From assembly GCA_945787285.1 (NCBI GenBank), contig CALZIC010000001.1, positions 1 through 34,630 of the forward strand: a DNA stretch of 34,630 nucleotides, in the 5' to 3' direction. The notes under the pieces were generated by a model. That model was not told the origin of the DNA, did no database searches, and saw only the letters and a list, made by a program, of their open reading frames with translations. The DNA is from an uncultured Desulfuromonadales bacterium (GTDB taxonomy: Bacteria; Desulfobacterota; Desulfuromonadia; Desulfuromonadales; Trichloromonadaceae). The first letter of the stretch is position 1; the number at the start of each line of letters is the position of its first letter. The position numbers and the translations under genes were made by a program. Below are positions 6,972 through 23,840 of this stretch, one piece after another.

Positions 6972-8885
6972 TCAGAAGGGGGTGCGGCCGAAGTGGCGCT
7001 TGGTCGCTTCCTGCAGCTTGCTGACCGCGTGAAATGCCTCCTTGAGCAGGTCCTGCTCTGTTTTCGAGAGGTCATGCGGGTTGAGGTAGTGGGTCGGTTC
7101 TTTGCCGGCGTCGAGGCAGCCGATTTCGTTGCGCAGTCGAAGAAAGGTCAGGGCTTCAAAGGCGGCGCGAATATGCTCGGCGGTTTCGGGTGCGAAGACG
7201 TTGCGTTCGACCAGGGTTTTGAGGCGGTCGAGGGTGGTCAGTTCGTGCAGCCCTTTTTCGAGGGCGAACATGCGGATGCAGTCGACGATGTAGATGCTGC
7301 CCCCCTGTTTCAGGGACAGCTGTCCCTTGTGGTCCCCGGACTTCTCCAGAGTGAAGCGGCCAAGCAACCCGACCGGAACCTTGTAGCGCAGGTCCAGGGA
7401 CATCATGTGATAGAGAAAGGCCTGGAATTCACGAATTTCGCGGTCGACGATAAGCTTCAGGTCGTGCGAGAGGGAGGCATCGCCGTCGAGGGGGGTGAAA
7501 TCGAAGAAGATGGACGAATAGCGCACCTTCTGCGGTTCGGGGTTGTTGACCCAGTCGCTGATGCGTTCTTTCCAGTCTTTGAGGCGCCCCCGCCAGGCGG
7601 GGTTGTTGGCCATGACCTTGCCGGTGCAGAGGGGGTAGCCGATGCGCTCGAGGGCGGCAACGATCTTTTCGGAAAAGGGGGCGAAAAAGGCCTCGACCTC
7701 CTCCATCTGCTCATCCGGTACATCTTCGTAGATGAAACCGTTGTCCTGGTCCGGTCCGAGCAGCATCTCGCGGCGTCCGCCGCTCCCCATAATGAGGAAA
7801 CAATAGCGGATATCGGGGGGCGTTTTCCCCTCGGCCTTCATCTGCTCCATGCAGATATCGTAGGCCTGCTTGATGATGCCATGGTGGATATAGGAGATGA
7901 TCTCCATGACTTCGGGGGTGCTTCGGGTCTCGGAAAGGAGGGTGCGGGCAACGTTGACGATCTGGTTGCGAATGGTGGCCAGACCCTCGATGGTCTTTTC
8001 CTCACGGATGTTGCCGACCAGCAGCATCGCCTTGTGGCTGCGGAAGCGCATCAGGTCGCGAACAGTGACGATGCCGACCACTTCGCCCCGGTCGACCACC
8101 GGCAGGTGGCGGATCTGGTGCCCAAGCATGAAGGACATGGCTTCGTACATGTAAGTGGAGGGGGGGAGGGAGTGCAGGTGCTTCTCCATGATCTCTTCGG
8201 CGAGCATCAGGTCGGGGTCGCCCCCTTTGGCCGCCATCACTTTGGCGACCATGTCACGCTCGGTGAGAATGCCGCGCAAGACATTCTGTTCATCGACCAC
8301 GATGATGGCGCTGATATTCTTCTGGGTCATGCGCTTGGCCACGTGGCGGACCGTGTCATGCGGCAGGCAGGTCTCGACCGGCGATGTCATGATCTCCGAG
8401 AGGCGCTTTTTAAACGGGAAGGCCTCCATATGGGTGAGGGCCTGCTGGTTATGGTCGGCGACGATTTCCGAATAGAGCTTGCGCACCCGGGAATGGACAA
8501 TACGGGTGAAGAATTCGCCGAGCTGGGGATAGTCTTTTTCGGCTCGTTTCAGGATCTCGTTCGGAATCAGGTAGCATTCGGTGGTTTTGACCGTCCGGGC
8601 GCCTCCGGTGTACGGCTCACCGGTGAAGACCGGGGTCCCGCCGAAAAAGCACCCTTCGTTGCGGTAGTCGACCACCATCTCTTCGCCCCCCGGGGCCAGG
8701 ACGGTGATTTCGACAAGCCCTTCCTTGATCACGTACAGGTAGCCGGTAGGCGGGGCGTTCTGTTTGAAAAGGTAGACGCCGGAGGGGAATCTTTTCAGCT
8801 GGGCGCTTGAGCGGATTTCCTGGTAAAGGTCATCGGGCAAGTGGTTGAACGGCTCGGTTTCCTGGAGATGCTTGATAAGGGGCAT
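6972..8885 (-). CDS. Cassette A cNMP-binding-like/CBS/DUF294 nucleotidyltransferase-like protein
   Basis: This 637-aa protein starts at the ATG at 8885 behind AGGGAAC; the in-frame extension to 8975 reads through a strong hairpin and is absent from the paralogue. Domains in order: cyclic-nucleotide-binding-like (about 8-130), two CBS domains (about 165-220 and 230-285), a DUF294 GlnD-type nucleotidyltransferase with GSGGRREMLLGPDQDNG (about 367-383, GS plus DxD), and a C-terminal DUF294 domain (about 450-625). The cNMP cassette reads FGGTPVF...PYTGGARTV, lacking the usual FGE Glu and PRxA Arg, so cyclic nucleotide binding is doubtful. The family commonly sits next to acetate-type SSS symporters and is thought to be regulatory. 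It aligns with the paralogue at 11795-13702 without gaps for at least the first 440 residues. Confidence 0.9.
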   Translation of the reverse strand: MPLIKHLQETEPFNHLPDDLYQEIRSSAQLKRFPSGVYLFKQNAPPTGYLYVIKEGLVEITVLAPGGEEMVVDYRNEGCFFGGTPVFTGEPYTGGARTVKTTECYLIPNEILKRAEKDYPQLGEFFTRIVHSRVRKLYSEIVADHNQQALTHMEAFPFKKRLSEIMTSPVETCLPHDTVRHVAKRMTQKNISAIIVVDEQNVLRGILTERDMVAKVMAAKGGDPDLMLAEEIMEKHLHSLPPSTYMYEAMSFMLGHQIRHLPVVDRGEVVGIVTVRDLMRFRSHKAMLLVGNIREEKTIEGLATIRNQIVNVARTLLSETRSTPEVMEIISYIHHGIIKQAYDICMEQMKAEGKTPPDIRYCFLIMGSGGRREMLLGPDQDNGFIYEDVPDEQMEEVEAFFAPFSEKIVAALERIGYPLCTGKVMANNPAWRGRLKDWKERISDWVNNPEPQKVRYSSIFFDFTPLDGDASLSHDLKLIVDREIREFQAFLYHMMSLDLRYKVPVGLLGRFTLEKSGDHKGQLSLKQGGSIYIVDCIRMFALEKGLHELTTLDRLKTLVERNVFAPETAEHIRAAFEALTFLRLRNEIGCLDAGKEPTHYLNPHDLSKTEQDLLKEAFHAVSKLQEATKRHFGRTPF

Positions 8886-8918
8886 GGAATTGTTCCCTGT
8901 GTAGAGAGGCGCGTTTGT

Positions 8919-8955
8919 GGGGCAGCTCCCGAAGCCCCCCTCTTCGGGAGGCCCC
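8919..8955. other. Strong GC-rich hairpin upstream of the cassette A DUF294 gene
   Basis: GGGGC (8919-8923) pairs with GCCCC (8951-8955), and CTCCCGAAG (8926-8934) with CTTCGGGAG (8942-8950), with a 2-nt bulge and a 7-nt loop: 14 bp in all. It lies 34-70 bp before the DUF294 start codon on the transcribed strand. There is no T-run on either side, so an RNA-stabilising, processing or pausing role is as likely as termination. Confidence 0.7.
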
Positions 8956-9057
8956 AAGCCATCAATAATCGGCACATTCTACCGGCATGGCCTATTCCGG
9001 GCAACCCTTTTTAGATGGTTTTGCCCTGCTTCGCGGGATGTTGGGGATATTCTTCTG

Positions 9058-9218
9058 GGAGGCTGTCGGACTTGATGGGCCAGAACGAAAAATCGGATGG
9101 TCGAGCCCAGGTTTTCGAGGATTTGAGAGCGAATAGCAGGGCTATTTGTCGAAAATCGTCGGAGATATGGGCCGATCAGTCGATTTTGCAGTCGGTCATG
9201 TCAAGTCCGACAGCCTCC
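9058..9218. mobile_element. MITE-like element with 18-bp terminal inverted repeats (copy 1)
   Basis: The ends are perfect inverted repeats, GGAGGCTGTCGGACTTGA (9058-9075) and its complement (9201-9218). The 161-bp element has no coding capacity that I trust and fills most of the 332-bp gap between two cassette A genes. A second copy lies inverted at 23687-23840; for example a 21-bp block is identical (9159-9179 and 23727-23747). Size, ends and dispersal fit a MITE or a REP-like repeat. I see no clear target-site duplication. Its right end touches the stop codon of the neighbouring small gene. Confidence 0.8.
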
Positions 9219-9412
9219 TAGGTGGATTTCTCGGCTCCCTTGGGGGTGCGGTCAAGCACGATGGCCAACACAAAGCAGATGATGCTTGCGGCCATCAGCT
9301 CGCCGATGTGGGTGAAGAAATTGCGGGTCATCATCAGGTCGACGCCCATCAGGGCAATGCCGAGGACACCGAACCCCATGGCCAGACGCTTGCGGGGGAA
9401 GAGTTTTTTCAT
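9218..9412 (-). CDS. Small two-helix membrane protein in cassette A, unknown function
   Basis: This 64-aa protein starts at the ATG at 9412, preceded by AGAGAGG; an in-frame ATG at 9469 has no ribosome binding site. A basic start (MKKLFPRKR) leads into two hydrophobic helices, LAMGFGVLGIALMGVDLMM and IGELMAASIICFVLAIVL, and a charged tail. I do not recognise the family. It lies 97 bp downstream of the symporter gene and upstream of the DUF294 gene, the same slot that holds a three-helix protein in cassette B. The stop codon (9220-9218) overlaps the end of the inverted-repeat element, so the last residues may have been set by that insertion. Confidence 0.6.
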   Translation of the reverse strand: MKKLFPRKRLAMGFGVLGIALMGVDLMMTRNFFTHIGELMAASIICFVLAIVLDRTPKGAEKST

Positions 9413-9509
9413 TTTAGCGGCCTCTCTTTCGAAAAAAGGTCCGGGCTGGGGCGCCGGGCAGGTGGGCATTGCCAGCTGCGGTGGCTGCAGAGGAGAGAAG
9501 GGTTTGCGG

Positions 9510-11222
9510 TCAGTGGGAAAGTGCGCTCCCTTTGCCTGAATTCTCCTCTTCCACGTAGCCGGGGAGGTTGTGGAGTTTGCGCAGGATGTTGTCTCCGCGG
9601 ACAGCCGATTCGTCAGGAAGCCTGTCCGCCATGATCTTGGAGACGATGATGTTGAGGAGAAAAGCGATCGGGCAGACGATCAGCGCCGAGGAGGTGGCGG
9701 GCAACAGGCCGGTGGGGCCGAAAAAGTCGACCTGGGCAATCCATCCCAGCATAGCGATCAGGGTCATGCCGAGGCCCCATATCATCCCGGCCAGCGCCCC
9801 GTACTTGTTCGACCCTGAGTACCAGATGCCGAGAACGACCACCGGGAAGATCGTATTGCCGGCAATGGCGAAGGCCATGGCGACAATCTGGGCGATGAGG
9901 GCCGGCGGATTCAGGGCGGTGATGACGACCACCCCGCAGAGAATCGCGGTAAAGACGCGGCCGACCGCCAGTGCCTCGGAGTCAGTGCAGTTCGGTTTGA
10001 AGACGGTGGAGTACCAGTCGTGAGCAATGGCAGAGGCTCCGGCGACCAGCAGGCCGGCCACCGTGGAGAGGCCGGCGGCCATGGCGCCTGAGGCGAGGTA
10101 GCCGATGAAGGCGATTCCGAGTCCGGCCTTCTCTGGAGCGGAGAGGATGATGACGTCGGCAACCGCTTTGCCGCCGAGGGGGTTCCAGAACTTGCCCATG
10201 GCTGCATAAACCGGGGAGGACCAGTAGAGCAGGCCGATGAAGAAGAGCCCCCAGAGCACCGATTTGCGGGCGACATCCTCGTTTTTGACGGTGTAGAAGC
10301 GGATCATGATGTGGGGGAGTCCGGCGGTGCCGACCATCAGGGTGAAGACCAGGGCGATAAAGTGGTAAAAGCCCCCCACCCCCCAGGGGAGGTAGATTTT
10401 GCGGACATCGTCCAGGGCCTCGCCGGTCAGCACGCCACCCGCCTCGGCGGCGACCTTGCCATCGAGGAGCCCGGAGAGGATGTGTCCGTATTCGAGCTGG
10501 GGCAAAATACCGGAGCCTCCGGCCTTCTGGATCAGTATCCACAGGGGGATTATGAAGGCCGAGATCAGAACCACGTACTGAATCTGCTGATTGCGGGTCA
10601 CCCCGGCCATTCCGGAAAGGAGCATGTAGGCGCAGACGACGCCGGCGGCGAAGAAAACCGAGCCGGTGTAGCTGAAGCCGAAGATCCAGCCGCAGATCAG
10701 GCCGATCCCTTTGAACTGGGCGGTGGAGTAGGTGATGGCGATGATGACGGTCACCGAGGCGGCGATCAGGCGCACCGCATGGCAGTCGTAGCGGTCGCCG
10801 AGGAACTCGGGGATGGTGTATTTGCCGAAGCGGCGGATCTGGGCGGCGATCAGGCAGAGGAGCAGAACATAGCCGCCGGTCCAGCCGATGATGTAGCCGA
10901 GGCCGAACCAGCCCTTGAGGTAGAGCAGGCCGGCGACCCCCATGAAAGAGGCGGCCGACATCCAGTCCGAGGCGATGGCAGCGCCGTTGCCGAATTTGCC
11001 GATCCCCTGGCCGGCGACCCAGTAGCCGGAGGTGTCGGAAACCATCGACAGAAAGCCGACGCCGATATAGACGCACAGCAGGGAGACCATGATGACCGCT
11101 GGAATCAGCTTGAAGCCCTGTTCGACCTGGAAGATCTCATCCCCGGCGGCGGCATGCAGATTGCCGGCGGTGCAGAGGAGGGCGCCCAGAATCAGTCCAA
11201 GACGGATGGCCTTTGTGCTCAT
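9510..11222 (-). CDS. Cassette A sodium:solute symporter (SSS family, acetate permease-like)
   Basis: This 570-aa protein starts at the ATG at 11222, two bases after the stop of the small-subunit gene and behind GGGGGGA. It belongs to the SSS family (LeuT fold), whose ActP-like branch imports acetate and other short monocarboxylates with Na+. The N-terminus (residues 5-25) looks like a signal peptide or first helix. Family marks include SDWMSAASF (about 85), RFGKYTIPEFLGDRY (about 131), GTAGLPHIMIRF (about 298) and GLSTVAGLLVAGASAIAHD (about 384), which should hold the Na2-site residues. About 13 hydrophobic segments are visible. It lacks the long loop insertion seen in the cassette B homologue. 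The substrate is inferred from family and organism type, not shown. Confidence 0.9.
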   Translation of the reverse strand: MSTKAIRLGLILGALLCTAGNLHAAAGDEIFQVEQGFKLIPAVIMVSLLCVYIGVGFLSMVSDTSGYWVAGQGIGKFGNGAAIASDWMSAASFMGVAGLLYLKGWFGLGYIIGWTGGYVLLLCLIAAQIRRFGKYTIPEFLGDRYDCHAVRLIAASVTVIIAITYSTAQFKGIGLICGWIFGFSYTGSVFFAAGVVCAYMLLSGMAGVTRNQQIQYVVLISAFIIPLWILIQKAGGSGILPQLEYGHILSGLLDGKVAAEAGGVLTGEALDDVRKIYLPWGVGGFYHFIALVFTLMVGTAGLPHIMIRFYTVKNEDVARKSVLWGLFFIGLLYWSSPVYAAMGKFWNPLGGKAVADVIILSAPEKAGLGIAFIGYLASGAMAAGLSTVAGLLVAGASAIAHDWYSTVFKPNCTDSEALAVGRVFTAILCGVVVITALNPPALIAQIVAMAFAIAGNTIFPVVVLGIWYSGSNKYGALAGMIWGLGMTLIAMLGWIAQVDFFGPTGLLPATSSALIVCPIAFLLNIIVSKIMADRLPDESAVRGDNILRKLHNLPGYVEEENSGKGSALSH

Positions 11223-11224
11223 AT

Positions 11225-11551
11225 CTAGAATCCCCCCTGTTTTTTCCGTTTTGCCGAGACGTTCTTGTCCCACAGGACGCAGTAAAGCTTGCAGAGCAGA
11301 ATATAGCCGATGGTGCATCCCTGGGCGATCAGCCAGTAGTGCAGAGGAAAACCGAGGAAACGGGCGTTGGTAATGAACGATTCGCCAAGGCCGCTGGGGT
11401 CTCCGAGTCCGGCGAGGAAGATAACGATCGGAATTCCGTAGCTGAGCAGAAACCAGCAGATGATCACAGTGGTGGCAATCCCTACTTCAGCCCTCATGCT
11501 TTCCGTCGAGGGCCTGAAAAAGTTGACATCCACTCGCTCTTTGCCGGCCAT
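11225..11551 (-). CDS. Cassette A symporter small subunit (DUF4212)
   Basis: This 108-aa protein has two transmembrane segments (about 24-47 and 69-90) joined by a loop and ends in a basic tail. The sequence GFPLHYWLIAQG matches the pattern G-x-P-L-x-(Y/F)-W-x3-Q-G shared with the cassette B small subunit and typical of DUF4212, the putative small subunit of a class of Na+/solute symporters. The ATG at 11551 has GGGAGG upstream. It is the first gene of cassette A and is nearly fused to the symporter gene. The 243-bp region upstream must hold the promoter, but I found no convincing -35/-10 pair; it contains a direct repeat GAATTCGT (11737 and 11751). Confidence 0.88.
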   Translation of the reverse strand: MAGKERVDVNFFRPSTESMRAEVGIATTVIICWFLLSYGIPIVIFLAGLGDPSGLGESFITNARFLGFPLHYWLIAQGCTIGYILLCKLYCVLWDKNVSAKRKKQGGF

Positions 11552-11794: not shown

Positions 11795-13702
11795 TCATCC
11801 GACATTGAAGTGTCGTTTGGCCGAGTCCTGCAGTTTGCTGGCAGCGCGAAAGGCTTCCTTGAGAAGGTCCTGTTCATTTTTGCTCAGGGCATAGGGGTCG
11901 AGATAGTGGGAAGGGGGCTTGTCCTTCTCGACCAGGGAGATCTCATGGCGAAGCCGTAAGAAGGTGAAGGCTTCGAATGCCGCTTTGATATGCTCGGCCG
12001 TTTCCTGGTTGAAGACGTTCAGTTTGACGAGCTGTTCAATGCGCTCGATGGTGGTCGTTGCATCGATCTGCTTTTGGAGAAGAAACATCCGGACGCAGTC
12101 CACGATAAAAACGCTGCCGGCCTGCTTGATGGAGAGTTTCCCTCGGTGGTCCTTGTCTTTTTCAAGGGTGAAGCGGCCGAGAAGGCCAAGGGGAACCTTG
12201 TGCTTAAAGTCAAGGGCCATCAGGTGGTAAAGGAACAGGGGAAATTTTTTGATCAGTTGATGAACAATGTCGCGCAGGTTCAGACAAAGAGAAGCATCCC
12301 CGACCAGGGGCATGAAGTCGAAAAAGATGTTGGAGTACATGACCTTCTTAGGTTCCGGAACGAGAATCCAGTCGGAAATACGCTCCTGCCACTCCTTAAG
12401 CCGGCCGCGCCAGAGGGGGTTGTTCGCCATGACGTTGCCGTTGCAGAGGGGGTAGCCGATTCGGGCGTAGGCCACCACAAGTTTTTCGGCGAAGGGGATA
12501 AAAAAGGCGTCGACTTCTTCGGCGAGTTCGTCAGGATAGTCTTCAAAGACGAGGCCGTTGTCCTGATCGGGACCGAGCAGCATTTCCTTGCGCCCGCCGC
12601 TGCCCATGATGATGAAGCAGAAGCGGACATCGGGGGGGGCAAGCCCCTGTTGCACCATCTGTTCAAAGACGATCTCGAAGCCGCGCTGCAGGATGCAGTG
12701 GTGGATATAGGAGATGATCTCCATCGTCTCTACGGGGGAGCGGGTTTCGTTCATCAGGGCGCTTGCCACCTTGACGATTTCGCCCTTCGCCGTTACCAGG
12801 TCTTCGATGGTCCGGGATTCTTTGATGTTGCCGACCAAAATCATCGATTTCTGGCTGCGGTATTTCATCAGGTCCTGCAGGGTGACGATTCCGACGACAC
12901 CGTTCTGGTCGAGAATCGGCATGTGCCGGATTTTGCGCCCCATCATAAACGCCGCGGCTTCGTACATGTAGGTGTCCGGGCTCATCGTGTAGGGGTTGGG
13001 CGTCATGACATCGGAAGCGGCCATGGTTGTGCCATCGACCATGTCCCTGGCGAGAACCTTGGAGACCAGGTCGCGTTCGGTAATGATGCCGGCCGGGCAT
13101 TGGGTTTCGTCGCAGACCAGCATGGCGTCGATCCCCCGTTGAGTCATTCTTTGTGCGACCTCCCTGATGGGGGTAGCGGGGGGGCAGGTTTCAACAGGCG
13201 AACTCATGATCTCGGAGAGACGTTTCTGAAACGGGAAGGCCTCCATCTGGGTGAGGGCCTTCTGACTGTGGTCGGTGACCATGTCGGAATATAGGCTGCG
13301 AACCCGGGAAAATACAGCCCTGGTGAAGTACTCGGTGACCTGCGGGCATCGGGAGGCCGCCTTGGCCAACAGTTCTTCGGGGATGAGATAGCACTCGGTT
13401 TCGCCGACGGTGCGGGCCCCGGCGGTGTAGGCCTCATTGGAGAAGACCGGTGTGCCGCCAAAGGAAGATCCTTCCTTGCGGTAATCGACCACCATGTCGA
13501 CCCCCCCCGGCGTCTGGGCTACAATTTCCACCAACCCTTCCTTGATTATGTAGAGATAGCCTGTGGGCGGGGCGTGCTGACTGAAAATATAAGTGTGGGG
13601 CGGGAATTTTTTGAGGACGGCGGCCTGATTGAATTCGTCAAAAATATCTTCAGGAAGATGCCGGAACGGTTCCGTATCTCTTAACTGGCTGATCAAACCC
13701 AT
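11795..13702 (-). CDS. Cassette B cNMP-binding-like/CBS/DUF294 nucleotidyltransferase-like protein
   Basis: This 635-aa paralogue of the protein at 6972-8885 has the same domain order: cNMP-like (about 8-130), CBS pair (about 165-285), nucleotidyltransferase with GSGGRKEMLLGPDQDNG (about 367-383), and DUF294 C-terminal domain to the end. The ATG at 13702 follows a GGGGG stretch. As in the paralogue, the phosphate-binding cassette reads FGGTPVF...AYTAGARTV, without the canonical Glu and Arg. The catalytic DxD of the transferase is kept. A terminator lies between it and the preceding 122-aa gene, so it may have its own promoter; a GATAAT-like -10 overlaps the palindrome CTGATTATCAG (13719-13729). 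Its target is unknown; the adjacent symporter is the obvious candidate. Confidence 0.9.
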   Translation of the reverse strand: MGLISQLRDTEPFRHLPEDIFDEFNQAAVLKKFPPHTYIFSQHAPPTGYLYIIKEGLVEIVAQTPGGVDMVVDYRKEGSSFGGTPVFSNEAYTAGARTVGETECYLIPEELLAKAASRCPQVTEYFTRAVFSRVRSLYSDMVTDHSQKALTQMEAFPFQKRLSEIMSSPVETCPPATPIREVAQRMTQRGIDAMLVCDETQCPAGIITERDLVSKVLARDMVDGTTMAASDVMTPNPYTMSPDTYMYEAAAFMMGRKIRHMPILDQNGVVGIVTLQDLMKYRSQKSMILVGNIKESRTIEDLVTAKGEIVKVASALMNETRSPVETMEIISYIHHCILQRGFEIVFEQMVQQGLAPPDVRFCFIIMGSGGRKEMLLGPDQDNGLVFEDYPDELAEEVDAFFIPFAEKLVVAYARIGYPLCNGNVMANNPLWRGRLKEWQERISDWILVPEPKKVMYSNIFFDFMPLVGDASLCLNLRDIVHQLIKKFPLFLYHLMALDFKHKVPLGLLGRFTLEKDKDHRGKLSIKQAGSVFIVDCVRMFLLQKQIDATTTIERIEQLVKLNVFNQETAEHIKAAFEAFTFLRLRHEISLVEKDKPPSHYLDPYALSKNEQDLLKEAFRAASKLQDSAKRHFNVG

Positions 13703-14408: not shown

Positions 14409-16214
14409 TCAGTGCCCGCCAACCGACTCTTTGGAACCGCGGGGGATACGGACATCTTCGACCATGGCAGCAATGTGCTCAGGTACAGGAGCGGTCATGT
14501 TCTTGACAGCGAAGGCCGCTGCGAAGTTGACGATGGCGCCGATGGCCCCGAAGGCGTTCGGCGAGATGCCGAAGAAGAAGTTCGGTCCGCCGATGGCGTT
14601 AACAAACTCGGTCCCCTTGATGAAGAAGATACCTTTGTGGGCAAAGACGTAGAACATGGTGACGCCGAGACCGGCCAGCATACCTGCGATGGCGCCTTCG
14701 CGGTTCATGGTCTTGCTGAAGATACCCATCATCAGGCAGGGGAAGAGGGAGCTGCCGGCCAGACCGAAGGCGATGGCCACGGTGCCGGCGGCGAAGCCCG
14801 GAGGATTGAGTCCGAGGTAGCCGGCGACGCAGATGGAGCCGGCCATGGCGATCTTGCCCGCCATCAGTTCGTTCTTCTCGGAGAGTTCGGGCATCCAGAT
14901 TTCCTTGAGCAGGTCATGAGAGATGGCCGAAGAGATGGCCAGCAGCAGGCCGGCAGCGGTCGAGAGGGCAGCAGCCAGACCACCTGCGGCTACCAGGGCG
15001 ATTACCCAGTTGGGCAGCATGGCGATTTCCGGGTTGGCCAGAACGATGATGTCGCGGTTGACGTTCAGCTCGCTCCCTTTCCAGCCGGCAGCGGCAGCCT
15101 TGGCGATGACTTCAGGATCCTTGGTCTTGTCGTTGTAGTACTGGATGCGGCCGTCGCCGTTCTTGTCCTCGAACTTGAGCAGCCCGGTAACTTCCCAGCG
15201 CTTCATCCAGTCGGGACGCTGCTCGTACACGATGTTGTTGTTGTTATCGAACATGTCGCCACCGCTCATGACGGCGGTGTTGACGGTGCTGTGCAGGTTC
15301 AGGCGAGCCATGGCGGCAACGGCAGGGGCGGTGGTGTAGAGGATGGCGATGAAAACCAGGGCCCAACCGGCGGAGGAACGTGCACCCTTAACGTTGGGCA
15401 CGGTGAAGAAGCGGACGATAACGTGGGGCAGGCCCGCGGTACCGATCATCAGCGATACGGTGTAGACGAACATGTTCAGTGTACTGCCTGGAACCGATGT
15501 TGTGTACTTGCCGAAACCGAGGTCGGTAACAACCTGGTCGAGCTTGGTCAGCAGGGACAGGTCGGTGCCGGCCAGGTCGGAACCGAGGCCAAGCTGGGGC
15601 AGCGGGTTGCCGGTGAGCTGCATCGAAATGAAGATGGCCGGAACGGTGTAGGCCAGGATCAGAACGCAGTACTGGGCGACCTGGGTGTAGGTGATCCCTT
15701 TCATGCCGCCGAAAACCGCGTACATGAAAACGATGGCCATACCGATGTAGATACCGGTTGCGTTGGAGACGCCGAGGAAGCGGGAGAAGGCGACGCCGAC
15801 GCCGGTCATCTGACCGATGATGTAGGTGATCGAAGCCGACAGCAGGCAGATAACCGCCACGGTGCTGGCTTTCTTCGAGTAGAAGCGGTCACCGACGAAC
15901 TGGGGCACGGTGAACTTGCCGAACTTACGCAGGTAAGGCGCAAGCAGCATGGCCAGAAGAACGTAGCCGCCGGTCCAGCCCATGAGGAAGAGGCCGCCGC
16001 CGTAGCCCATGTTGGCGATCAGGCCGGCCATGGAGATAAAGGATGCCGCGGACATCCAGTCGGCACCGGTCGCCATCCCGTTCAGGACAGGGTGAACGCC
16101 GCCGCCGGCAACGTAAAATTCTTTGGTACTTCCCGCACGCGCCCACAGGGCGATGCCGATGTAAATCGCAAAGGTGAAACCAACAAAAACATAAGTAATA
16201 GTTTGAAGATCCAT
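14409..16214 (-). CDS. Cassette B sodium:solute symporter with EF-hand-like loop insertion
   Basis: This 601-aa SSS-family permease is probably for acetate or a related monocarboxylate. The ATG at 16214 has a very strong ribosome binding site (AAGGAGGGG). Shared family marks are ADWMSAASFI (about 51), KFGKFTVPQFVGDRFY (about 97), GTAGLPHVIVRFF (about 258) and LSTAAGLLLAISSAISHDL (about 417). Unlike cassette A it carries a hydrophilic insertion of about 80 residues (about 310-395) between two membrane helices. The insertion has an Asn run (DNNNN) and a calcium-loop-like DKNGDGRIQYYN (350-361; nt 15132-15167), with ligands at loop positions 1, 3 and 5 and the usual Gly and Ile, but Asn where Glu is usual at position 12. 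It is followed by a terminator, so it and the small subunit can form their own mRNA. Confidence 0.92.
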   Translation of the reverse strand: MDLQTITYVFVGFTFAIYIGIALWARAGSTKEFYVAGGGVHPVLNGMATGADWMSAASFISMAGLIANMGYGGGLFLMGWTGGYVLLAMLLAPYLRKFGKFTVPQFVGDRFYSKKASTVAVICLLSASITYIIGQMTGVGVAFSRFLGVSNATGIYIGMAIVFMYAVFGGMKGITYTQVAQYCVLILAYTVPAIFISMQLTGNPLPQLGLGSDLAGTDLSLLTKLDQVVTDLGFGKYTTSVPGSTLNMFVYTVSLMIGTAGLPHVIVRFFTVPNVKGARSSAGWALVFIAILYTTAPAVAAMARLNLHSTVNTAVMSGGDMFDNNNNIVYEQRPDWMKRWEVTGLLKFEDKNGDGRIQYYNDKTKDPEVIAKAAAAGWKGSELNVNRDIIVLANPEIAMLPNWVIALVAAGGLAAALSTAAGLLLAISSAISHDLLKEIWMPELSEKNELMAGKIAMAGSICVAGYLGLNPPGFAAGTVAIAFGLAGSSLFPCLMMGIFSKTMNREGAIAGMLAGLGVTMFYVFAHKGIFFIKGTEFVNAIGGPNFFFGISPNAFGAIGAIVNFAAAFAVKNMTAPVPEHIAAMVEDVRIPRGSKESVGGH

Positions 16215-23686: not shown

Positions 23687-23840
23687 GGAGGCTGTAGGAC
23701 TTAACATGAACCGACTGCAAAATCGGCTGATCGGCCCATATCTCCGATAGTTCTCAACAAATGGCCCTGCTATTCGCTCTCGAATTCCCGAAAATCCGGT
23801 CTTGTACATCCGATTTTTAGCAACGCTATAAGTCCTTTAC
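23687..23840. mobile_element. Diverged second copy of the MITE-like element
   Basis: This copy is in the opposite orientation to the one at 9058-9218 and matches it along nearly its whole length by eye, with identical blocks such as 23727-23747. The left terminal repeat is recognisable (GGAGGCTGTAGGACTTAA); the right end keeps only TAAGTCCT and is decayed. It fills most of the 289-bp gap between the divergent RluA and smc genes, so it may separate or contribute to their promoters. Confidence 0.75.

Follow-up and report, generated by a model that had tools for sequence, protein, structure and literature searches.

A palindromic hairpin MITE of Desulfuromonadales and Proteobacteria with the terminal repeats of IS1182-family insertion sequences

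The window, a stretch of 34,630 bp from an uncultured Desulfuromonadales bacterium, carries two copies of a repeat that is a genuine mobile element, and that is probably a non-autonomous, palindromic hairpin MITE moved by IS1182-family DDE transposases, its interior being conserved as a strand-preferring structure. The initial annotation had called the repeat MITE-like, and the name was borne out: it is short and non-coding, with inverted terminal repeats, dispersed copies, empty orthologous sites and the ends of an autonomous element, whose transposase family was found. In the mechanism that we propose, IS1182-family DDE transposases would recognise the MITE ends in trans, and the MITE would be inserted at CTAG, a tetramer that is probably duplicated. 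The element would have passed between Desulfuromonadales and several proteobacterial classes, with repeated amplification inside genomes, and copies whose single strand folds correctly would spread better than misfolding ones.

Window copies, dispersal and insertion sites

Copy 1 occupies positions 9058-9218 on the + strand, which is the better-folding strand across the family, at its full length of 161 bp (covariance model, 157.9 bits, model positions 1-162). The palindromy first described for its ends extends to the entire element, which forms one long hairpin. The terminal inverted repeats (9058-9075, + strand, and 9201-9218, - strand) are perfect over exactly 18 bp (GGAGGCTGTCGGACTTGA), as had been annotated, and the left one is common to IS1182 elements. 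The 161-bp extent also held, with the outer G and C forming part of the flanking tetramers as well; these are CTGG on the left (9055-9058), a variant of the CTAG target inferred from other copies, and CTAG on the right (9218-9221). On the - strand, the TAG of this right CTAG is the stop codon of an adjoining small gene, an 83-aa ORF (9218-9469, - strand) that lies outside the element and is given as context only. Copy 1 is situated between two - strand genes, and no plausible gene was found within the 161 bp.

The diverged inverted copy reported earlier was recovered, its arm at 23710-23818 being 85% complementary over 109 nt to 9088-9196, and the longest block common to both window copies was indeed the identical one of 21 bp (9159-9179, + strand). 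Copy 2 (23687-23840, - strand) is older and has eroded ends, so that the model match, at 23697-23835 (80.5 bits), is shorter than the extent first annotated. Its neighbours, named by inspection, are a divergent pseudouridine-synthase-like gene on one side and an SMC-like gene on the other. The window also contains a tandem duplicated gene set (6972-8975 and 11795-13702, with 9510-11318 and 14409-16214, all on the - strand), which by inspection encodes CBS/nucleotidyltransferase-like and sodium/solute-symporter-like proteins, at a DNA identity of ~70-75% and a spacing of ~4.8-4.9 kb.

Dispersed copies were detected in the own genome and in its relatives, both by BLAST and with a covariance model. 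The 58 BLAST rows in the own genome (G000) comprised ~41 forward copies, the rest being palindromic reverse self-matches, and 45 copies were found there with covariance model R1 (E<=1e-4). Among the 58 genomes searched, own included, 23 had matches by BLAST (E<=1e-6) and 30 by model R1 (E<=1e-4), which had been trained on some of the genomes later searched with it. The site of copy 1 was empty in G001, G003 and G013, the three relatives whose joined flanks align through; in other relatives with matches the flank alignment stops short of crossing the site. The site of copy 2 was likewise empty, the gap between the two genes being shorter in the five relatives fetched (5/5). Empty counterparts were thus found for both window copies, as well as for recent copies in a relative, and neither of the outcomes named initially as refuting mobility was seen, namely a lack of further copies or a confinement to orthologous positions with vertical inheritance only.

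The relative with recent copies, G017, carries near-identical elements (39 copies that differ on average at 2.8 of 163 bp). Three of its insertions were compared with G033 and G052, two of which showed a net gain of the element plus 2 bp. One of these two interrupts another repeat that reads CCTAGCC in the four distinct G052 copies listed, with a net insertion of 165 bp (163 + 2); the third site was also empty, with a gapped alignment. The repeat that served as target belongs to a second palindromic family of the same genus, present at ~11913-12255 of L117 in G017 and at several loci of G033 and G052 (L120-L148). In a 70-bp class (11/55 copies in G017), the central part between two CGGGCC repeats is missing, and deletion derivatives of 60-89 bp accounted for 14 of 56 copies, so movement does not strictly depend on the full fold. 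Truncated MITE halves joined to gggattgcta occur three times in G017 (L231 3700-4700 and 10250-10420; L233 2990-3110), one of them ~80 bp from a RAYT-like ORF. In G047, a tiny palindrome made of MITE ends only (CTAGGAGTCTGTCGACAGACTCCTAG; L065 591-620) directly adjoins a full copy and is an extreme deletion derivative.

Insertions fit either a CTAG target duplicated over 4 bp, with an element of 161 bp, or a TA target duplicated over 2 bp. CTAG flanked both sides in 36/55 G017 copies, and the same non-CTAG tetramer was found twice in one; the remaining 18 had unlike left and right tetramers, 17 of them keeping one CTAG, a mismatch that exceeds the prediction from the 1.7% body divergence. CTAG was present on both sides in 19/20 copies of Pseudomaricurvus, the youngest set seen (0.5 differences per copy), and in 14/20 copies of Extensimonas, 16/20 of Sulfuricella and 9/20 of G051. 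CTAG is most likely the duplicated target; an exact 4-bp duplication falls short of proof, because the tetramers differ in those 18/55 G017 copies and also in copy 1 (CTGG left, CTAG right). According to crude home-made gene calls, none of the 81 copies in G017 and G000 lay inside a predicted gene, and in 10/81 the neighbouring gene end obtained a TAG stop from the CTAG.

IS1182-family insertion sequences with the same ends

The MITE ends, CTAG followed by SAGNYTGTCGGACTT, are also borne by insertion sequences of the IS1182 family, which answers the search for a transposase with matching ends suggested in the initial annotation. A contig scan for this end gave at least 117 stretches; CTAG was part of the pattern, so the flanks of these matches are no evidence on the target. 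In two of the at least 117 stretches, paired ends lay ~1.6 kb apart around a transposase, and a third such element was found by protein comparison. The transposases of these elements are members of the IS1182 family: of three that were scored, one passes the NF033551 cut-off, and two are fragments that fall short of it. A Verrucomicrobiia copy scored 291 on NF033551.

A search of 58 genomes with the G051 protein detected six IS1182 loci in five genomes (G006, G029, G042, G051 and G057), and a MITE-type end was present beside the transposase gene in 6/6 IS1182 loci of the order. The insertion sequence of G042 is intact: it measures 1590 bp, has CTAG at each end and contains an ORF of 468 aa whose product reached 366 bits on NF033551 (cut-off 270). 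As a control, 30 DDE_Tnp_1 loci from 10 of 12 genomes searched were inspected, and an end was found in only one of them, itself the same IS1182, so a general DDE_Tnp_1 transposase was rejected as mobiliser. The insertion sequence at L231 12771-14153 in G017 was also discarded, its ends being unrelated by inspection. Judging from these shared terminal sequences, the likely mobiliser is an IS1182-family transposase.

No transposase-spanning pair was detected in the own genome, where none of 54 end matches were 1-2.5 kb apart. With the G051 query (E<=1e-15), a related IS1182 transposase was not found in G000 (own assembly ~92% complete), G001, G017 or G047; the insertion sequence being absent at this sensitivity, the MITEs in these four genomes appear orphaned. 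Copies of the IS1182 family (NF033551, with IS1272 as a member), in the order and beyond, carry terminal inverted repeats and CTAG flanks that match those of the MITE, but the MITE has no transposase gene. When the MITE interior was compared with the 250-bp ends of the insertion sequences, there was no similarity above shuffles, save nominal scores on one largely N-masked end. Because of this result the interior is taken not to be IS-derived, and the MITE is not called an internal-deletion derivative of IS1182. Another transposase class was abundant in G042, whose contigs C1 and C2 gave 26 Y1 transposase matches; the scores of many of these were identical, which suggests that IS200/IS605-type elements expanded there recently.

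A conserved hairpin and its preferred strand

Folded as RNA, copy 1 reached -100.4 kcal/mol, compared with -49.2 +/- 3.8 for shuffled sequences (z -13.4), with almost the whole element in one hairpin. Conservation of this fold was examined in an alignment (A1) of 54 elements hand-picked for diversity, 53 from a 90-element set plus the window copy, itself listed first in that set as L001. RNAalifold gave 54 pairs for A1, and 44 of these show one or more double changes. In the named structure 92.3% of cells were paired vs 73.4% when shuffled, and double-changed cells numbered 543 vs 185; for both measures, 0/500 shuffles and no slide reached the observed value. Nearly invariant loop bases were G33 (54/54), A34 and A142 (53/54 each), A100 (52) and G52, A56 and G120 (51/54 each). 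In copy 1, the nearly invariant GA of alignment columns 33-34, whose G is the one present in 54/54, is at 9087-9088 (+ strand) in a conserved internal loop, opposite a conserved GCAG at 9188-9191 (+ strand) that consists of the loop bases G-C-A and a pairing G; GA opposite GCA could form sheared G.A pairs. The earlier suggestion of a constrained core, or of an RNA or protein-binding function, holds only as far as this conserved single-strand fold.

The aligned strand was more stable than its complement in 53/54 A1 sequences (-85.9 vs -68.8 kcal/mol), and likewise in 54/54 with DNA parameters, so that RNA and single-stranded DNA cannot be told apart. Losses of Watson-Crick pairs were placed on a tree to allow for kinship, and parsimony counted 106 changes to G.U vs 52 to A.C over pairs predicted from either strand, 54 vs 26 over pairs predicted from both strands, and 60 vs 35 over those predicted from the complementary strand. 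Copies occur in both orientations, and therefore a mutational strand bias should average out. From these sequence comparisons, selection appears to act on a folded single strand, either RNA or ssDNA. Singleton mutations in G017 were about equal (9 G.U vs 12 A.C), tentatively suggesting, on 21 events, that the fold is maintained in lineages still spreading and not in settled copies. In four further genomes the G.U/A.C singletons were 3/3, 6/2, 7/4 and 4/0, among top-scoring model hits, which are biased to good folds.

Such a fold could also be kept for the host, as an RNA element in which a co-transcribed hairpin stabilises or trims the mRNAs of neighbouring genes and is preserved by selection at many sites. 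This would be consistent with the strand-specific conservation of the fold and with the location of 81/81 copies between predicted genes, several of them directly at stop codons. Such a role has been proposed for YPAL of Yersinia, which reportedly raises transcript levels. According to a review, YPAL might influence RNA stability. A role for the host is nevertheless unlikely, since the G017 singletons have no G.U preference, the insertion sites are not common to relatives, and the 81 copies in G017 and G000 showed no orientation bias relative to flanking genes (by crude gene calls, 20 sense and 26 antisense to tandem gene pairs, 15 in convergent and 13 in divergent settings, 7 undetermined). 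Orientation by replichore was also considered, and the GC skew from the G017 fragments was too noisy for origin placement.

It is similarly improbable that the fold is unselected, its arms having been kept complementary by template switching or conversion and its cross-phylum spread reflecting recent horizontal transfer. Conversion between arms would also yield paired changes, many within-genome copies are nearly identical, and the interior unpaired columns of A1 were on average no more conserved than the paired ones (entropy 1.02 vs 1.06). Against this, conversion would erase mismatched loops, yet G33, A34 and A142 are among the most conserved positions; it would not favour G.U over A.C at 106:52, and the length of the element stays at 160-164 bp despite the divergence of the interiors. 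The least probable alternative is that a RAYT (Y1) transposase moves the repeat, in the form of single-stranded DNA, as an element of the REP/BIME type. This would account for a strand-specific hairpin and would agree with Y1 genes in 52/58 relatives and with the one G017 end fragment near a RAYT-like ORF. Such an origin was rejected: almost every genome of the order has Y1 genes, and genomes that lack the element commonly have them too, yet 0/30 Y1 loci had ends within 1.5 kb (<=1 mismatch), and the same ends bound IS1182 elements.

We favour a MITE that is moved by an IS1182 transposase and whose fold would serve the spread of the element and not a host gene. The hairpin might be used in a structure-dependent step of IS1182-type transposition, or a transcript of the element might have to fold. 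The IS1182 member IS1272 reportedly chooses stem-loops as targets and replaces them with no target duplication (PMC5678879), whereas MITE insertion at CTAG adds sequence. Given this choice of stem-loops, a structure-reading transposase family is, by analogy, a plausible reason for the conserved hairpin of the MITE; the cruciform model of IS1272, as described there, treats both strands alike, so the strand preference is unexplained by that model alone.

A bolder and tentative reading, to which we give somewhat less than even weight, is that of a widespread parasitic, mobile, structured nucleic acid, conserved in at least two phyla. Selection would act on its strand-specific folded single strand (RNA or ssDNA), in which internal-loop bases are invariant; it would spread in trans on IS1182 transposases, with folding as one step of its propagation. 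If true, IS1182-type DDE transposition, or its control, would have a structure-reading step that is exploited by MITEs. MITEs are usually viewed as passive leftovers with a drifting interior; here, Desulfuromonadales, Beta-, Gamma- and Zetaproteobacteria all keep the length and fold of the interior, with strong covariation and a preferred strand, and the ends point to IS1182. Whether hairpin or single-strand structure is read by a family of DDE transposons thus becomes a question that can be tested.

Related repeat families and spread across bacteria

A literature search of article texts found no description of this repeat family. Plasmid and phage collections had no match to the window copy, and Rfam gave no match in the window at gathering and none around copy 1 at E<=10; covariance model R1 offers an annotation probe for this high-copy repeat absent from Rfam. 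Several known repeats resemble it, as far as the available parts of their descriptions go. YPAL / RU-2 of Yersinia is also an intergenic hairpin (~168 bp) with a conserved stem-loop, and mobile as judged by empty sites (PMC2229807, PMC2267715), but it has its own target duplications of 3-26 bp in place of the CTAG target, its printed terminal sequence differs as judged by inspection, and in those texts it is reported in Yersinia and Erwinia with no tie to an insertion sequence. Correia/NEMIS, ERIC and RUP are likewise short intergenic palindromes with terminal repeats, and RUP has been attributed to IS630 through shared ends, as the MITE is here to IS1182; they are described with a TA target and other ends, and homology to them was assessed through Rfam, which gave no match.

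Closer relatives of the host harbor comparable repeats, two of which were compared by description only. The Chunjie MITE of Geobacter uraniireducens, probably from the same order, has conserved terminal and direct repeats and a length of 178-235 bp in the excerpts available. The multicopy palindromes of Geobacter and Pelobacter are dispersed intergenic families like the MITE, with no transposase link in the available text of their reports (PMC2700814, PMC2996986, PMC3543383). This MITE family may be among those palindromes, and some copies may already have been catalogued without the present analysis.

Desulfuromonadales share a homologous interior of 160-164 bp with Beta-, Gamma- and Zetaproteobacteria. 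In 38 of the at least 117 stretches listed, elements bounded by both ends measured 157-168 bp, and the taxa among the matches listed included Nitrosomonas, Extensimonas, Sulfuricella, Rhodoferax, Ideonella, Halomonas, Saccharospirillum, Pseudomonas, Pseudomaricurvus and Zetaproteobacteria, a spread that is a lower bound (80 titles among the at least 117 stretches). G039, a genome of the kinship set, and the Geothermobacter genome gave matches at the same coordinates; therefore, the order of the window is the one holding Geothermobacter, which we take to be Desulfuromonadales.

Eighteen genomes outside the kinship set were reached via the listed loci, and 14 of them matched model R1. Matches were most numerous in Extensimonas perlucida (144), Sulfuricella (103), Nitrosomonas OFTM37 (65) and Pseudomaricurvus alcaniphilus (64), followed by Endozoicomonas ascidiicola (30), Thioalkalivibrio denitrificans (28), Geothermobacter hydrogeniphilus (22), Saccharospirillum (20), Ideonella (17), a Pseudomonas MAG (17), a zetaproteobacterium (12), Nitrosomonas OFTM190 (8), Halomonas (6) and Pseudomonas N040 (4). 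The four genomes with no model match were those of Anaeromyxobacter, Parahaliea, Methylomonas and a Verrucomicrobiia MAG. The Anaeromyxobacter MAG carries a 160-bp element with exact ends and a poorly aligning interior (L289 3695-3854), which is possibly an unrelated interior on the same ends.
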